Shown: positions 53,248-61,051 of the stretch, one piece after another
Numbering within the stretch: position 1 is the stretch's first letter
How the letters are laid out: every line of letters begins with the position of its first letter
Source of the DNA: Candidatus Binatia bacterium
Lineage (GTDB): Bacteria > Desulfobacterota > Binatia > HRBIN30
DNA length: 64,000 nucleotides
Direction: 5' to 3'
Assembly: GCA_937925685.1 (NCBI GenBank)
Contig: CALAMI010000010.1
Span: forward strand, 1 to 64,000
Position numbers and translations under genes: made by a program
Notes under the pieces: generated by a model
What the model was told of the DNA's origin: nothing
Seen by the model: only the letters and a program-made list of their open reading frames with translations
Databases searched by the model: none

Positions 53248-53712
53248 CTAGCCACGTAAAGTTCGCAGCAGCTCTGGAGCGTCTTTGTGCCCTAAGGCAC
53301 GCGTGATGCGCTGAGCGATAAGCCACCGGTGATCCTTTCGGACAAACTCCCATCGATTGAAACTCAGGCGCCACAAAGTCACGGTGTCGTCTTCTTCCAG
53401 CCCGTAAAGACGCGAGTAACCACAAGCAGTGGCACGGTCTCCCTCAACGGTGACCACTACAGGACCAATCGTATGCGCACTAGCAAGCATCTGGATTTGT
53501 TTTCGCCGATCGATAATCGTTGCAACGATTTGGTCGCGTCCCTCGAGACGCAGTTCGTCGAGTTCGTACACTGCATCATCCGTAAACATGGCCGATAGGG
53601 ACTCGGCGTCGCCGGTATCGGCGGCCAGCCCGTAACACGTCAGCAAACTGTGTAATGAGAGGATGTCCTCGAGCCTGCGTACCCGCTCTTCTAACTCTTT
53701 TCTGTCTTCCAT
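53248..53712 (-). CDS. SnoaL-like/NTF2-fold protein
   Basis: 154 residues, with AAGAGGAT about eight bases before the ATG. It begins with a helix (RRLEDILSLHSLLTCYGLAA) and continues DTGDAESLSAMFTDDAVYEL, LEGRDQIVATIIDRRKQIQM, SAHTIGPVVVTVEGDRATAC, and a final beta-sheet FVRKDHRWLIAQRITRALGH. This is the NTF2-like fold of SnoaL_4 proteins. Members include cyclases, isomerases and hydratases, so substrate is open. It is 13 bases after the DUF35-type gene and probably in the same operon. Confidence 0.85.
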   Translation of the reverse strand: MEDRKELEERVRRLEDILSLHSLLTCYGLAADTGDAESLSAMFTDDAVYELDELRLEGRDQIVATIIDRRKQIQMLASAHTIGPVVVTVEGDRATACGYSRLYGLEEDDTVTLWRLSFNRWEFVRKDHRWLIAQRITRALGHKDAPELLRTLRG

Positions 53713-53725
53713 ACGAGCGATCCTC

Positions 53726-54178
53726 TTAATCGCCCCGGTCGGGCTCCCACACGGGTAAAACGATTGTGTCGTTGAGGTGCTGAAAACATACTCGGACCGG
53801 CATGCCGAAGTAAACCTGGTTGGGCAAGCAACTCACCAGGTAGCTGACCAATCTTGCGCCCTCTTCCGTTTCCACGATAGCGAGAATTAATGGTAATCGG
53901 TGCTGCAAGGCCGGGAGGAAGGGCTCGTAAGCAATGACGTACGAAAAAATGGTTCCACGGCCTGATGCCTCGAACCACTCGAGTTCTGCCTCGTGCCAGT
54001 AAAGCGGCTTGGGCGGCCAGTGCAGGCGGTGACTTTGCCTCTCGCGTTGCAGCATAAGTCGTCCTTCCCGAGCACCTTCCCAAAAAGGGCGCATGATAGG
54101 ATCGTCCAAATCGGGAAGTGGATAATCGGGATGGAGTGGCTGCTCGTCAGCGAAAAAAACCGGTTCACGAGCCCTCAC
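53726..54178 (-). CDS. DUF35-type protein lacking the zinc-ribbon cysteines
   Basis: 150 residues from GTG 54178, with AAGGAGG nine bases upstream; the start overlaps the stop of the upstream ORF (GTGA). It has the DUF35 plan: N-terminal helices with PIMRPFWEGAREGRLML, then a ribbon segment RERQSHRLHWPPKPLYWHEA where normal members have two CxxC pairs, then an OB-fold (GRGTIFSYVIAYEPFLPALQ, LPLILAIVETEEGARLVSYL, GMPVRVCFQHLNDTIVLPVW). No cysteine remains in residues 40-68. DUF35 proteins pair with thiolase-like proteins such as Ltp2; the likely partner is the thiolase-like gene at 55235-56431. Confidence 0.85.
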   Translation of the reverse strand: MRAREPVFFADEQPLHPDYPLPDLDDPIMRPFWEGAREGRLMLQRERQSHRLHWPPKPLYWHEAELEWFEASGRGTIFSYVIAYEPFLPALQHRLPLILAIVETEEGARLVSYLVSCLPNQVYFGMPVRVCFQHLNDTIVLPVWEPDRGD

Positions 54179-54693
54179 CCGGAAGTTCCTCCTTTGGGAG
54201 GCTTATTTCTTAGGGGCCTCCCGCCCGGCAAAACGAACTCCCCTGCCCTGCTTTGGGTCGATCCTGTGTTTGGGTCCCGTGGGGTGCCCCCTGCGGATGC
54301 GTGCGGTTGCTGGGCGTCCTTGGCGAAGCGTATCAGCGTCGGCCGGGGGCGCCGAGGAATTTTCTTGAGCGTGTCGCCGAGTGTGCGGCGAATCACTGCA
54401 AGCTCACGCTCTGCCGGACGGCACTCGAGGACCACGCGGATGCCAGGATCGTGGGCTTCTCGCTCAAGATGAAAACCGAACACGATTCCGAGCTTTCGTA
54501 AAGTCGGCACTAAGGCATGTTCGATCTCTCGAACGCGTTCGGATGGCAGTTGTTGGCCGTCCGTCTGAAAGTGCGTGTGGATGAAACTCTGCCATTCGTC
54601 GATGATTCGCATAGCGTAGGTTGCGCTCTCCCGAATTATGGGCCAGGTGCCGATCACTCTACTTACCGATCGCCATAGAGCTAGAAACGACAT
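54175..54693 (-). CDS. Unrecognised protein with possible alpha/beta core
   Basis: 172 residues from ATG 54693; AAGGA lies close upstream. The first 115 residues look protein-like (AMRIIDEWQSFIHTHFQTDG, IEHALVPTLRKLGIVFGFHL, RVVLECRPAERELAVIRRTL), but the last 45 are low-complexity, rich in Gly, Pro, Arg, and overlap the ribosome binding site of the next gene. The true product may still be as read, because the stop is coupled to the DUF35 start. No family is recognised. Confidence 0.5.
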   Translation of the reverse strand: MSFLALWRSVSRVIGTWPIIRESATYAMRIIDEWQSFIHTHFQTDGQQLPSERVREIEHALVPTLRKLGIVFGFHLEREAHDPGIRVVLECRPAERELAVIRRTLGDTLKKIPRRPRPTLIRFAKDAQQPHASAGGTPRDPNTGSTQSRAGEFVLPGGRPLRNKPPKGGTSG

Positions 54694-54699
54694 CCATCC

Positions 54700-54795
54700 T
54701 TAATGAGTTTTTCTGCTGCCCAAAAGCCGGTCGCCAAAAGGTGAGGTGCCGGTGACTCGGTTCATGTAAAGCAGCGTTGCGAAAGGAATCCCCAT
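54700..54795 (-). CDS. 31-residue mini-ORF with strong ribosome binding site
   Basis: ATG 54795 is preceded by GAGGAGGTG with eight bases spacing, one of the best ribosome binding sites in the region. The product is MGIPFATLLYMNRVTGTSPF then GDRLLGSRKTH, stop TAA. The next start (54693) is four bases beyond the stop, next to AAGGA. It has no signal or membrane helix. It could be a translated leader, a coupling peptide or a real small subunit; alternatively a remnant C-terminus of a lost gene. Confidence 0.5.
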   Translation of the reverse strand: MGIPFATLLYMNRVTGTSPFGDRLLGSRKTH

Positions 54796-54828
54796 TTGCC
54801 GCACCTCCTCAGGTCGGAGCCATAGCCT

Positions 54829-55065
54829 CTAGGAGTTACTAGGGTGAGAAGCCGGGTACCCCAAGACGGAACATCCTTCAGCGGCGAGCGCTAGAGCAAT
54901 CAGAAAAACCAACACTGCGACGATCCACCAAGCGCGCCAAGTGCCACCAGTTGCAGCATACGGATTCCACGCAGAGCCCTTACGCCGGCTCAGAAAACTC
55001 ACCTTGCTCCGGTTTGCTCGCGGCAACTCTGGCGCGCCCTTTTCCTTTCGCAACGTTCGGCGCAT
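54829..55065 (-). CDS. Possible small single-span membrane protein
   Basis: 78 residues. A basic N-terminal half (MRRTLRKEKGAPELPRANRS) leads to GGTWRAWWIVAVLVFLIALA then LAAEGCS, a clear membrane helix, and a short tail. There is no good ribosome binding site. It lies between the thiolase-like gene and the mini-ORF on the same strand, so it could belong to that operon. The 170 bases before it (55066-55234) hold nothing recognisable. Confidence 0.35.
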   Translation of the reverse strand: MRRTLRKEKGAPELPRANRSKVSFLSRRKGSAWNPYAATGGTWRAWWIVAVLVFLIALALAAEGCSVLGYPASHPSNS

Positions 55066-55234
55066 GGCCCGCTTAGTCGTTCAAAGCCGAGACTACGAAC
55101 CAACTTTCCGCCTGTTGTGGACGGCCATAATTTACATGCGTACTTGCGCAGATCAACGCCGGCTGACGTCCTTTTGCTACTTGGGGACTCTCATCACGAG
55201 TCAACCCGCAAATTTCGAACCGAGTGCACGTACA

Positions 55235-56431
55235 TCAATCTGGGCTTCGCAAAATCATGGCACTTGTTGCGACGCCGGCTGCCCCCGTGACTAAAACCGC
55301 CTGACAGTTTGGTACTTGATTCCAGGAAGTACCGCGAATTTGGCGCACGCCTTCGAGAATCAGGTTAAAACCGTGCACGTATGCCTCGGACAGGCCACCT
55401 CCTGAGGTCAGCACGGGCAACTCCCCACCCAGTTCGATTCGGCCCCCCTCGGTGAACGGGCCCCCTTCCCCGCGTGGGCAAAAACCGTAATCTTCTAAAC
55501 CCATGATTACCAGCGGCGTGAACGCGTCGTAGAGTTGGGCGCAGTCGATGTCCTTCGGTGTCAACTCCGCACGCTGCCACAGCAGGCGGGCGCAAAATAC
55601 CGCCGTTGTCTCCATATCTTTCGTGTTGTTGTAGTTGGCGAGGTGAACCGGATTCGGCCCGCTGGCCTGGGCGACGGAATGAACGAGGACTGGTTTTTGT
55701 CGCAAATCCCGGGCCCGCTCGATCGATGTAACCACACATGCCAGGGCCCCGTCGGTTTCCAAGCAGCAGTCGTAAAGGCAAAGGGGGTAGCTGATCATGC
55801 GGCTGGTGAGATACGTCTGCAAGTCGAGCGGGCGCCCGCGCATCATCGCGTAAGGGTTGTTGTGCGCGTGCTTGCGGGCGGCAATCGCTACATTGGCAAA
55901 GTGTTCGCGCTTGGTACCGTAGAGATACATGTGACGGTGGGCGTAAAGTCCGATGATGTCAACTGGGCGGATTAGTCCCCACGGCAGATAGAGCGACTTG
56001 TCATCTCGGGCGATTCCGCGCTCTCGGGCCCACGGGCGCGATGTTTTCGCCCCACGGTTGCGTGCACGGTGACAAACAACCACCGATGCTAGGCCAGTGG
56101 CGATGGCCGCGGCCGCGTGCATCACAGTTGCCGCCAAAGCCCCTCCCCCGTAAGAAATCTTGTCCCACCAGCAGAGGTTCTCCACTCCTAGCCGGCGGGC
56201 AATGGTTACCTCATGAGTGGCTTCCATTTCGAACATACTCATGCCATCGACATCTGCTGCATGGAGCCCGGCGTCTTCCAAGGCCATCTGGATCGCCTCT
56301 ACCGCTGTGTCGGCGATTGGACGGCCGATATCCTTGGCGAAGGGCAAATGCCCAATGCCGACAATAGCAACCCGATCGCGGATGCGCTGAAAGAGGTCAG
56401 GATCCAGGGAATCGCTGGCGACCAGAGCCAT
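55235..56431 (-). CDS. Thiolase-like protein, Ltp2-type (non-thiolytic acyl-CoA aldolase candidate)
   Basis: 398 residues. Thiolase fold features are present (VAIVGIGHLPFAKDIGRPIA, LEDAGLHAADVDGMSMFEM, CLYDCCLETDGALACVVTS, CAQLYDAFTPLVIMGLEDYG), but the nucleophilic cysteine of the CASG loop is missing: the segment reads KISYGGGALAATVMHAAAAI. The GHP histidine is replaced by SGGGLSEAYVHGFN, the pattern of the lipid-transfer-protein aldolases such as Ltp2 in steroid side-chain degradation. That group uses tyrosines for retro-aldol cleavage and needs a DUF35 partner. The start follows GAGGTGG. The hydratase gene lies 48 bases upstream. Confidence 0.87.
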   Translation of the reverse strand: MALVASDSLDPDLFQRIRDRVAIVGIGHLPFAKDIGRPIADTAVEAIQMALEDAGLHAADVDGMSMFEMEATHEVTIARRLGVENLCWWDKISYGGGALAATVMHAAAAIATGLASVVVCHRARNRGAKTSRPWARERGIARDDKSLYLPWGLIRPVDIIGLYAHRHMYLYGTKREHFANVAIAARKHAHNNPYAMMRGRPLDLQTYLTSRMISYPLCLYDCCLETDGALACVVTSIERARDLRQKPVLVHSVAQASGPNPVHLANYNNTKDMETTAVFCARLLWQRAELTPKDIDCAQLYDAFTPLVIMGLEDYGFCPRGEGGPFTEGGRIELGGELPVLTSGGGLSEAYVHGFNLILEGVRQIRGTSWNQVPNCQAVLVTGAAGVATSAMILRSPD

Positions 56432-57409: not shown

Positions 57410-57847
57410 ATGATCCAAAAACGAAGAGTGCCGATCAAAGGCGGGTACTTCAGCATTCCTGAAGATCCGCTGGAGCCCCCGCGGTTGTTGGGCAGTCGCT
57501 GTCAGCGATGTGGCGAGCACTATTTTCCACGGCGGGCGATTTGCGCCAGGGCGGATTGTCTTTCCGACGACCTGGTGGACGTGGCACTGGGTCCCGAGGG
57601 TACCCTCTATAGCTTTACATTCGTTCACATGCCCCTGTTCGGCTCGAGTAATTTGGAACACATGGATGGCTACGGCGTCGGCCAGATCGACCTCCCTGAG
57701 GGGCCAAGGGTGCAGCTCCCCTTAGCCGGTCACAAGGAGGACTACTTCATCGGCCAGCGAGTCATCGCAGAACTGGATAAAATGCGGGAGGATGGGGATA
57801 CAGAGGTCGTGATCGTCCGCTTTCGTCCAACGGGGGACAAGAAATGA
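57410..57847 (+). CDS. DUF35 OB-fold protein with intact zinc ribbon
   Basis: 145 residues. The ribbon is GSRCQRCGEHYFPRRAICAR then ADC: Cys31, Cys34, Cys45 and Cys50. The OB-fold follows (LVDVALGPEGTLYSFTFVHM, GVGQIDLPEGPRVQLPLAGH, FIGQRVIAELDKMREDGDTE). DUF35 proteins act as subunits of thiolase-like enzymes and of MaoC-type hydratases (ChsH2), binding acyl-CoA. The stop overlaps the thiolase start by four bases, a common coupling in this pair. Confidence 0.94.
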   Translation: MIQKRRVPIKGGYFSIPEDPLEPPRLLGSRCQRCGEHYFPRRAICARADCLSDDLVDVALGPEGTLYSFTFVHMPLFGSSNLEHMDGYGVGQIDLPEGPRVQLPLAGHKEDYFIGQRVIAELDKMREDGDTEVVIVRFRPTGDKK

Positions 57848-58986
57848 GAAACGTAGCCGTGCTGGGTGTGGGCATGTACCGCTTCGGCATGGGGGATGTG
57901 CCAAATGCGGTGATGGCCCGAGAAGCCGGTCTGGCAGCATTGCGCGATGCAAACCTTTCGTTCCGGGATGTGCAAGCAGCTTACGTGGGGCACATTTTTG
58001 CCCCGGTGATGAGCGCGGTCCGGGTGATGAAAGAGTTTGGTTTGACGGGTTTGCCAGTCCAACACGTGGAGAATGCTTCAGCCACAGGGTCGGCGGCGTT
58101 CCGCGAAGCGTGTCTTCAGGTCGCATCGGGTCGATATGATGTGGTCATGGCGCTGGGCTTTGACAAGATGACGACCATGATCCAGCAGACGACGCAAGGT
58201 ACGGCTCCGGAGAACATGGAAGATGCGATCCTACCTGCTGCGTTTTTCGCCTTGTGGGCCACGCGCCGGATGCATGAGCGAGGAATGAAACCGGAGCATT
58301 TGGCAAAAATCGCGGCAAAAAATTGGAACAACGCTGCGTTGAACCCTATGGCGCAACGGCAGACTCAGGAGCAGATGACACCGGAGCGGGTGCTACGTTC
58401 CCGGATGGTTGCGTGGCCGTTAACCACGATGATGTCTTGCCCCATGGGAGACGGTGCCGCATGCGCCATCGTGGGTTCAGTGGACTTAGCCAGGAAACTG
58501 CGGCCGGAACGGCCGGTGGTGCGTGTGGTTGCCTCTGCGTTGCAGACCGAAAAGTACGCCCCCGGCCATCTGTTCATGGGACCGGTTGTTGGCCCGGCGC
58601 AGATGACCATTGATACCGCCGCCCAAGCTTACAACGAGGCGGGGATTGGCCCGGAAGACTTGGACTTAGTCCAAGTACACGACGCTTTCGCGATTGAGGA
58701 ACTCGAATATTACGAACTCCTCGGACTTTGTAAACCGGGTGAAGCCGAGAAGTGCATCGATCTAGGCGACTTCGAACTGCACGGGCGGCTACCCGTCTCC
58801 ACGGACGGTGGGCTCATTGCTCGTGGCCACCCTGGAGGACCTACAGGTTTGGCACAGATCTGGGAAACGACACTACAACTGCGAGGAGAAGCTGGAAAAC
58901 GGCAGGTCAATGGAGCCCGTGTCGGCCTTTGTCACATGATGGGTGGCGGCAGCGTTTGTGTCATCCATATCCTGCAGCGGGATTAG
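57844..58986 (+). CDS. SCP2-type thiolase-like protein with Cys-to-Ser at the nucleophile position
   Basis: 380 residues. Thiolase segments are NVAVLGVGMYRFGMGDVPNA, ALGFDKMTTMIQQTTQGTAP, QVHDAFAIEELEYYELLGLC and STDGGLIARGHPGGPTGLAQ, where His329 of the GHP motif is kept. The nucleophile loop reads VENASATGSAAF, so Ser79 stands where thiolases have Cys, and the HDCF signature of SCP2 thiolases is HDAF. The end GLCHMMGGGSVCVIHIL keeps a Cys in the second active-site region. Thiolytic activity is therefore doubtful; aldol chemistry or a noncatalytic acyl-CoA binding role is possible. It is coupled to the DUF35 gene upstream. Confidence 0.88.
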   Translation: MRNVAVLGVGMYRFGMGDVPNAVMAREAGLAALRDANLSFRDVQAAYVGHIFAPVMSAVRVMKEFGLTGLPVQHVENASATGSAAFREACLQVASGRYDVVMALGFDKMTTMIQQTTQGTAPENMEDAILPAAFFALWATRRMHERGMKPEHLAKIAAKNWNNAALNPMAQRQTQEQMTPERVLRSRMVAWPLTTMMSCPMGDGAACAIVGSVDLARKLRPERPVVRVVASALQTEKYAPGHLFMGPVVGPAQMTIDTAAQAYNEAGIGPEDLDLVQVHDAFAIEELEYYELLGLCKPGEAEKCIDLGDFELHGRLPVSTDGGLIARGHPGGPTGLAQIWETTLQLRGEAGKRQVNGARVGLCHMMGGGSVCVIHILQRD

Positions 58987-58990
58987 CGTT

Positions 58991-59821
58991 ATGCCCGTGT
59001 TCTGGGGGAACGTACCAACAGAACGGCCGGTGCGACGCGAGCTGCTGGTGCGGCTGCAGCAAAGTCTTTCTCCCCAGGCTTGGCGTCGGCCGCAGTGCCC
59101 GCTGGTCCGTGCCGGTGCGACCGGTCGCGGACAAAGTTTGCTCGTTGTCGCCTGGACGGCACAAATGCTTGCGGTTGAACGAGCGGCGGGAGTACGCTTC
59201 TTGCGGAAAGCTGGGATTCAGCCGGGTTATCGCGTAGCGAACACACTGCCCGGAGCGCTGGTTACCCCGGGAAGCCTCTTGCTCGGCGACGTGGTTGAGG
59301 CCCTTGGTGGCCTCGATGTTCCCCTCGGTGCAATCACTGGTATGGAGAGTGCCCTAGCCTCCTGGGAGCTTTTGCGTTTGGTCGAACCTCACGCCTTGGT
59401 GTTGGAGGTAACGACGGCACCCACGTTCTTTGCTGCGGCACCAACCCAGCGGGAGTGGTTTTTTAACGTTTTGGTTTGGCTCCATCGCGAGGTACCGGAT
59501 GCCTGGCCTGTACTGCCGGAACATGTGCGGGCGAAGGATACGATGCATTGGCTTACTGTTCCAGAGGTGCAGTGCTTTTTTGCGTATTCCTGTGGCGACG
59601 GCCATTTTCACTTGGATGAGTTATTGAGCCCACGAGTGATCGATCCCGGTACTCTTTCTCCCGCGCCCCGCGGTTTTTTGGAAGTTACGTGGTATGACGC
59701 GGAACAAGGCATGCTTTCCTACCTCGTGCCCTGGATGGTCGCGATCGAGCACGGAGAGTGTCCTCAAGGCAAACAGGCCGCCATTCGTTTATTGGACGCT
59801 GCCTGCGGGGACGTTGACTGA
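58991..59821 (+). CDS. Shrunken phenylacetate-CoA-ligase-like (ANL) protein lacking catalytic motifs
   Basis: 276 residues from ATG 58991 (a frame open to 58943 lies inside the thiolase gene). The body follows the PaaK core: RAGATGRGQ (40-48) at the P-loop place (normally SSGTTGKP), then RKAGIQPGYRVANTLPGALV (72-91), GDVVEALGGLDVPLGA (99-114), LVLEVTTAPTF, and CGDGHFHLDELLSPRVIDPG (201-220) ahead of GFLEVTWYDAEQGMLSYLVP. In PaaK these flank the YGxTE and YRTGD motifs; here they read WLTVPE and YLVPW, without the catalytic Glu-Thr and Asp. The C-terminal lid domain is missing and the chain ends in ECPQGKQ. The frame is uninterrupted and in operon, so it is a maintained pseudoenzyme or a very diverged enzyme. 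Homology is judged by eye. Confidence 0.65.
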   Translation: MPVFWGNVPTERPVRRELLVRLQQSLSPQAWRRPQCPLVRAGATGRGQSLLVVAWTAQMLAVERAAGVRFLRKAGIQPGYRVANTLPGALVTPGSLLLGDVVEALGGLDVPLGAITGMESALASWELLRLVEPHALVLEVTTAPTFFAAAPTQREWFFNVLVWLHREVPDAWPVLPEHVRAKDTMHWLTVPEVQCFFAYSCGDGHFHLDELLSPRVIDPGTLSPAPRGFLEVTWYDAEQGMLSYLVPWMVAIEHGECPQGKQAAIRLLDAACGDVD

Positions 59822-59860: not shown

Positions 59861-61051
59861 ATGGATTTGCGCCTCACATCGTCCGAGATCGCTTTCCGGG
59901 AGAAGATCCGTACCTGGCTTCAAGAGAACCTACCTCCCGGTTGGGGGACACCGAGTTATCGGGCCCCTTCCACTCCTGAGGAGCAAGTGGCCTTTGCTCG
60001 GAAGTGGCAGAGGAAGCTGTTCGATGGTGGCTGGGCGGGTCTGACGTGGCCTAAAGAGTACGGGGGATGCGGTGCTAGCGTGATCGAGCAACTGATTTAC
60101 AACGAAGAATATGCTCGCGCCGCAGCGCCGGACATCTTATGTCTGAAAATTGGCCTGAGTTTGGTTGGTCCAACCCTCATTGCTTGCGGTACGGAGGAGC
60201 AAAAGCGTCGATTCCTAGCGCCGATCTTGAGGGGTGAGGAAATTTGGTGCCAAGGGTTCTCGGAACCCAACGCGGGCTCGGACTTGGCTTCGGTCCGCAC
60301 CCGCGCGGAATTGAACGGAAGCGAGTTTATTGTCACCGGGCAGAAGATTTGGACCAGTGTGGCACGATACGCGGATTGGTGCATGTTAGTGACACGCACT
60401 CGGTCGGACGGATCAAAACACCATGGCCTCACCTTTTTACTCGTGGACATGAAAAGCGCAGGAATTACTGTTCGGCCGCTCCGGGAGATGACGGGGGAAG
60501 CGTGGTTCAACGAAGTGTTTTTCGAGGAAGTGCGCGTGCCCTGTGCAAACGTTGTTGGCCAAGTTGACCGAGGCTGGGATGTCGTGCTGACCACGCTCGG
60601 CCACGAGAGAGCTGGGACAACCCCCCACGTTCGCTTACAGGCGGAAGTCCGACGGCTAGCCCGGTTGGCACGGGATACATTCCGCGGTCAGGAGACGGCG
60701 GCGTGGGTCCCGGTGATTCGCCAAAGGCTAGCTCAATCGTGGATTGAAACCAGCATCTTGCGGCTCAGTGCGTACCGCAATGTGAGCCGGTTGTCGCGTA
60801 CCGGCGTGCCGGGACCGGAGGGATCGATTCTAAAATTGTTTTGGAGCGAACTCGAGCAACGGCTGAAAGATACCGCATGCGAACTGTTGGGAATGGCAGG
60901 CACCCTGGGGCAAGAGGATGCCCGATGTGTGGATGGAGGCTTTTGGTGCCACGAACTGTTGTGGTCGCGATCTGCGACGATTTATGCTGGCACCTCAGAA
61001 ATTCAACGCAACATCATTGCACAGCGGGTGCTCGGCTTACCAAGAGGTTGA
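59861..61051 (+). CDS. Acyl-CoA dehydrogenase
   Basis: 396 residues from ATG 59861. It oxidises acyl-CoA to enoyl-CoA with FAD. FAD and substrate segments are present: AGLTWPKEYGGCGASVIEQL, WCQGFSEPNAGSDLASVRTR, FIVTGQKIWTSVARYADWCM, GEAWFNEVFFEEVRVPCANV and ATIYAGTSEIQRNIIAQRVL. The last motif and the full-size C-terminal helical domain argue for an active enzyme. The position after the thiolase/PaaK-like genes suggests it works on the same acyl-CoA. A glutamate base cannot be pinned by eye. Confidence 0.94.
   Translation: MDLRLTSSEIAFREKIRTWLQENLPPGWGTPSYRAPSTPEEQVAFARKWQRKLFDGGWAGLTWPKEYGGCGASVIEQLIYNEEYARAAAPDILCLKIGLSLVGPTLIACGTEEQKRRFLAPILRGEEIWCQGFSEPNAGSDLASVRTRAELNGSEFIVTGQKIWTSVARYADWCMLVTRTRSDGSKHHGLTFLLVDMKSAGITVRPLREMTGEAWFNEVFFEEVRVPCANVVGQVDRGWDVVLTTLGHERAGTTPHVRLQAEVRRLARLARDTFRGQETAAWVPVIRQRLAQSWIETSILRLSAYRNVSRLSRTGVPGPEGSILKLFWSELEQRLKDTACELLGMAGTLGQEDARCVDGGFWCHELLWSRSATIYAGTSEIQRNIIAQRVLGLPRG

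Follow-up and report, generated by a model that had tools for sequence, protein, structure and literature searches.

Co-inheritance of a predicted lidless PaaK-core protein with two divergent PaaK paralogues in Binatia

Introduction

Does a short open frame that resembles the core of phenylacetate-CoA ligase (PaaK), and that appears to have lost the usual adenylation motifs, encode a maintained protein, and if so, with which partners might it work? The question is raised by a frame of 276 amino acids at positions 58991..59821 (plus strand) of a 64,000-nucleotide stretch from a Candidatus Binatia bacterium (assembly GCA_937925685.1, contig CALAMI010000010.1, positions 1 to 64,000), henceforth termed the window. 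A first-pass annotation made from the sequence alone had read it as a PaaK-like pseudoenzyme, and had suggested that the protein might serve as a third subunit of a neighboring thiolase/DUF35 pair. We term the protein gamma, and use alpha and beta for two divergent PaaK paralogues described below; A5, A7, A8 and A10 denote motifs with the names and roles assigned to them by ANL convention. A contig search with the single gamma protein returned one relative in Bacterium HR30, the closest named record. The order HRBin30 has been placed within the Binatota (PMC8262859), and the genome of the window probably falls there too.

Results

The gamma frame runs from an ATG at 58991 to a TGA at 59819-59821 with no internal stop. 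It begins 4 bases past the stop codon of an SCP-x-type thiolase gene (57844..58986, plus strand; assigned by Pfam and alignment), which is itself preceded by a gene for a DUF35 protein of the ChsH2-type OB/zinc ribbon architecture (57410..57847, plus strand; Pfam PF01796 and PF12172), and ends 39 bases before the start of an acyl-CoA dehydrogenase gene (59861..61051, plus strand; Pfam and synteny). The intact frame between thiolase and dehydrogenase, as originally annotated, was borne out, and homologues occur as open frames in 18 of the 148 class genomes searched, spread over 13 genera. These open frames, together with an excess of synonymous change, exclude a chance frame and confirm gamma as a real, conserved gene.

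Substitution patterns show how strongly gamma is constrained. Between the genome of the window (G000) and G002, the dN/dS of gamma is 0.143 at a dS of 1.73, well below the value near 1 that would have spoken against maintenance, while five other genes measured for the same pair fall between 0.018 and 0.075 (NUDIX gene rows were left out of this comparison and of the synteny comparison). For the pair G000 and G001, dS was saturated in 10 of 11 genes; pN was highest in gamma (0.272), with a SnoaL-like gene near it (0.261), and changes in gamma numbered 168 at third codon positions against 84 and 69 at the other two. Over the same 14 genomes, the total tree length was 8.3 for gamma and 3.5 for alpha, and the gamma members of G104 and G012 are very divergent. 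Gamma is under purifying selection, yet it is less constrained and evolves faster than its neighbors.

The relationship to PaaK is faint for the single sequence and clear for the family. Alone, gamma matched no Pfam family, scored weakly against the NCBIfam PaaK model NF041878 (E 0.009; 14.6 bits against a cut-off of 700), and found one PaaK chain among PDB sequences at E 0.34; PF00501 was matched by none of 14 family members. We aligned these 14 short homologues, obtained from a search of 58 genomes that included the genome of the window, and compared the alignment with one of full-length PaaK-like proteins from 13 of the 14 genomes containing short homologues, leaving out one protein cut by a contig end (L015) and another of a different ANL type (L029). 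Profile-profile comparison with hhalign gave a probability of 99.6 and an E value of 8.8e-25 over 258 aligned columns, with columns 3-275 of the short family placed on 39-328 of 440. The profile of the short family retrieved the solved PaaK structures 4r1l (E 2.9e-8, residues 70-320) and 2y4o (E 2.9e-7), followed by 9s3l (E 4.1e-6). Because of these matches, which agree with the collinearity proposed in the first-pass annotation, we assign gamma on sequence grounds as a PaaK core that stops before the lid. Compared with solved PaaK (4r1l, 2y27, 2y4o), gamma is collinear with the N-terminal core but lacks the lid, the P-loop, the A7 aspartate and the tyrosine of YGxTE, and it falls below family cut-offs. 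A 2-hydroxyisobutyryl-CoA synthetase (6hdw) is the third-best solved match of alpha after 4r1l and 2y4o (E 4.3e-47) and weakly matches gamma (E 0.016); alpha aligns over nearly all of this 499-residue chain, whereas gamma covers a small part. A single-chain AlphaFold model of gamma, computed from the gamma and L043 sequences, reached a pLDDT of 32.8 and a pTM of 0.26, values too low for the model to be informative.

Alignment with alpha and canonical PaaK localizes the losses. At residues 42-49 (59114..59137, plus strand), GATGRGQS, read on as TGRGQSLL, replaces the glycine-rich S/T-G-T-T-G-K/R-P loop, and judged by eye on the alignment, none of the 18 short homologues carries the P-loop pattern. 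The A7 position reads SYLVPW in the window protein, with no aspartate there in any of the 18 alignment rows, and all 18 homologues end before the lid. The reported loss of YGxTE holds for the motif, of which no complete copy occurs among the 18 homologues, but not for its glutamate: Glu192 (59564..59566, plus strand) occupies this position, and the column is still E in 16 of 18 members, in the context V-P-E, V-A-E or L-A-E. Conservation peaks elsewhere, with a mean top-residue fraction of 0.81 over 18 members for residues 81-100, and conserved positions extend as far as residue 113; this block (RVANTLPGALVTPGSLLLGDVVEALGGLDVPLG; 59231..59329, plus strand) aligns to the PaaK stretch GYGLFTGGLGFHYGAE..G..VIP. 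In total, 20 columns are conserved in at least 17 of 18 members. The alignments support the earlier description of a PaaK core that is maintained although the lid and the usual adenylation motifs are gone, and with it, on sequence grounds, a pseudoenzyme reading of the adenylation function.

The main and new result of this analysis is that gamma belongs to a co-inherited trio of divergent PaaK paralogues. Gamma was detected in 18 of 148 class genomes at no less than 113.8 bits each; the next matches of its profile, up to 98.4 bits, were alpha genes, and genomes without the trio reached at most 38.7 bits, apart from an alpha fragment in G054 at 51.5. Each of these 18 genomes also encodes alpha, a full-length PaaK homologue, at no less than 629 bits. 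In G054, which is 82% complete, alpha is present as fragments at the end of a contig, and no other match in the 148 genomes exceeded 207.2 bits. The distribution of beta, first spotted adjoining alpha in five neighborhoods, coincides fully with theirs: beta reaches at least 530 bits in the 18 genomes, and no other class genome matches at E 1e-70. These counts cover the best first-pass candidates scored per genome (up to 17 for gamma, 11 for alpha and 12 for beta), and 4, 5 and 14 of the 18 genomes, respectively, were found beyond the set used to build each profile. Phylum-wide, the gamma profile retrieved the short form from 3 of 395 genomes, all within the class, and its four other matches (43-60 bits) were frames of 391-457 amino acids, the size of full-length PaaK; the best alpha match outside the class in these genomes scored 235.8 bits. 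Among 237 genomes, 3 contained the beta type, again all within the class.

Carriers make up 13 of 72 genera overall. Inside the six carrier families, 13 of 20 genera have the trio and 7 do not, so presence changes for all three genes together within families f1, f3, f4 and f9. In 17 of 18 genomes, beta immediately precedes alpha with the same orientation; in G104, the two are on separate contigs. In the genome of the window, they sit side by side on the same contig as gamma, 290 kb away (beta, G000:C10:349364-350581; alpha, G000:C10:350661-351941). Beta is also found at L085:6427-7695 and L084:7607-8860. Gamma is within 40 kb of the alpha-beta pair in six genomes (G007, G021, G034, G041, G047 and G104); in the remaining genomes it is more distant or lies on a different contig. 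Gene content in the vicinity varies by family and includes, depending on the genome, acyl-CoA dehydrogenases and enoyl-CoA hydratases, a PF13452 hydratase and an amidohydrolase, as well as a CoA-transferase and ordinary acyl-CoA ligases. The PF13452 hydratase and the amidohydrolase, seen near alpha, were considered as further partners and set aside, their association being looser than that of the trio. The hydratase is present in 14 of 18 carriers (at least 510 bits) and as two pieces in G002, and also in six genomes without the trio (G032, G039, G045, G054, G112 and G115), with a piece in G111. The amidohydrolase is found in 10 of 18 carriers (at least 690 bits) and as two pieces in G007, and scores 662-678 bits in G039, G045 and G115, which do not have the trio.

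The three genes also share a tree signal beyond that of the species. With rpoB as species marker, the comparison was limited to 14 of the 18 genomes since rpoB was unmatched in G001, G052 and G113 and split in G104. Partial correlations of tree distances given rpoB were 0.83 for gamma and alpha, 0.81 for gamma and beta, and 0.91 for alpha and beta (p 0.0002 each, from 5000 permutations), and stayed at or above 0.59 in five runs in which clades were dropped. For the thiolase, compared over 12 genomes, the values were 0.06 with gamma (p 0.35), 0.08 with alpha (p 0.28) and 0.30 with beta (p 0.06).

Alpha and beta are themselves unusual. In all 18 genomes, alpha retains the P-loop, the A7 aspartate (within Y-D-L-(E/Q)-D) and the lid lysine, and it has a deletion of about 15 residues that includes YGxSE; its ligase activity is therefore not assured. 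Beta carries HTSPGPI(F/Y)(I/L)PR or a close variant at the P-loop site, with HTSPGPIFLPR in the genome of the window, and GEA(Q/L/V) at the YGxSE site. In a paralogue tree of 35 rows, built from 9 of 18 genomes per paralogue with 8 canonical PaaK sequences as outgroup, gamma, alpha and beta each form one clade, with alpha as the sister group of gamma (support 100/99), a placement to be read with care given the long gamma branches and few outgroups. Gamma is tied in 18 of 18 genomes to alpha, which keeps P-loop, A7 aspartate and lid lysine but not YGxSE. Three genomes of family f9 encode an additional ANL protein, about 430 amino acids long, after beta and alpha (L084:10229-11530, L086:10218-11510 and L088:6782-8065). 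Its P-loop looks degenerate by eye and it ends near the expected start of the lid, making it a candidate for another pseudo-ligase.

Discussion

Functional coupling of gamma with alpha and beta is well supported by these data. We propose that gamma, with its lidless PaaK fold, serves the two divergent paralogues as a partner that does not itself adenylate, a reading to which we assign a probability of about 0.5. The data show homology, motif loss, purifying selection, strict co-inheritance across the genomes searched and correlated trees; a physical complex, a division of labor among its chains and a class of substrate are inferred. Alpha would likely be the chain that uses ATP, because it carries a P-loop and the lid lysine. 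Beta and gamma, having lost the P-loop, would probably be structural, acyl-binding or allosteric chains, with gamma pairing either with its sister alpha or with beta, and the complex might convert one particular acid into its CoA thioester for steps resembling β-oxidation. The solved Burkholderia PaaK is described as a homodimer whose core is devoid of the first ANL sub-domain and in which the exposed surface is buried by dimerization via the second sub-domain (PMC4432964); a lidless core could therefore persist as a dimer partner. The trypanosome AdoMetDC prozyme, described as a catalytically dead paralogue that activates the live enzyme in a heterodimer (PMC5201418), offers a model of how such a pair might work, although it belongs to another enzyme family and its interaction has been shown, whereas that of gamma is deduced. 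No description of a PaaK pseudo-subunit, a lidless-core subunit layout or a trio of this kind was found among the titles and abstract openings that searches of one open literature collection listed. We also entertain, more tentatively, a hetero-oligomeric adenylate-forming enzyme with a divided active site, in which alpha would supply the P-loop and lid lysine, beta or gamma would supply the glutamate region deleted in alpha, and gamma would be the lidless core subunit. If the proposal is right, a trio whose members each lack a different part of the machinery would exemplify the passage of a PaaK-type enzyme to a hetero-oligomer with dead subunits, and frames of this kind would no longer be annotated as broken ligases.

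Several observations weigh against a partner role: in most genomes gamma is not adjacent to alpha-beta, partial co-inheritance extends to other genes near alpha, gamma evolves fast to the point of great divergence in two genomes, and alpha itself is without YGxSE. Shared inheritance with correlated trees can reflect membership of one pathway, or transfer as one set, instead of one complex; had the three genes been transferred together, the signal would be no different from that of direct contact. Gamma might act in the alpha/beta pathway on its own, as an acyl- or acyl-CoA-binding protein, carrier or sensor outside any complex. This possibility, which we hold to be the less probable one, would suit the scattered location of gamma, its position beside acyl-CoA dehydrogenases in several genomes and the placement of its most conserved block in the core between the P-loop and YGxTE regions; it fits less well with a co-occurrence of the trio in 18 of 18 genomes that is tighter than that of the thiolase, hydratase or amidohydrolase, all of which are also found without the trio. 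Chance retention of a decaying duplicate of alpha is highly improbable: a dN above that of the other genes measured and the longer tree would agree with decay, but a dN/dS of 0.14 already excludes neutral decay, and the frame has stayed open in 18 of 18 genomes across 13 genera, with 20 columns conserved in at least 17 of them.

The originally suggested role of gamma as third subunit of the DUF35/thiolase pair appears unlikely in the light of its wider distribution. The suggestion draws on a recurring arrangement, since DUF35, thiolase, gamma and acyl-CoA dehydrogenase genes lie together in G000, G001, G004 and G008, as well as in G007 with an extra dehydrogenase, and G002 preserves the order thiolase, gamma, dehydrogenase on a cut contig. 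However, these six are the only homologues of 18 inside such a cluster, 12 being located elsewhere (one of them, in G027, on a contig of only 5.1 kb). The thiolase is present without gamma in five genomes (G011, G032, G045, G111 and G112) and as a partial copy in G054, while G052 and G113, which carry gamma and are both less than 90% complete, yielded no thiolase orthologue. Together with the absent tree correlation (partial r 0.06), this distribution marks the thiolase as a neighbor of gamma and not a coevolving partner.

Three further features deserve mention. An AMP-binding gene elsewhere in the genome of the window (G000:C10:105976-107023) is represented by two partial matches, one of which reads through a TGA; either the gene is broken or the assembly is in error. 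On the minus strand at 53248-56431, Pfam identified another DUF35/thiolase pair, accompanied by a SnoaL-like protein, and the thiolase of this pair scores 474 bits against a cut-off of 469 for the PRK07855 lipid-transfer model. In the thiolase upstream of gamma, residue 79 (58078-58080), at what we take to be the position of the nucleophilic cysteine of thiolases, is a serine within ENASATGS; the enzyme might be a retro-aldolase, in the manner of Ltp2, instead of a thiolase. This serine is identical in all 20 covering rows of the 21 aligned.
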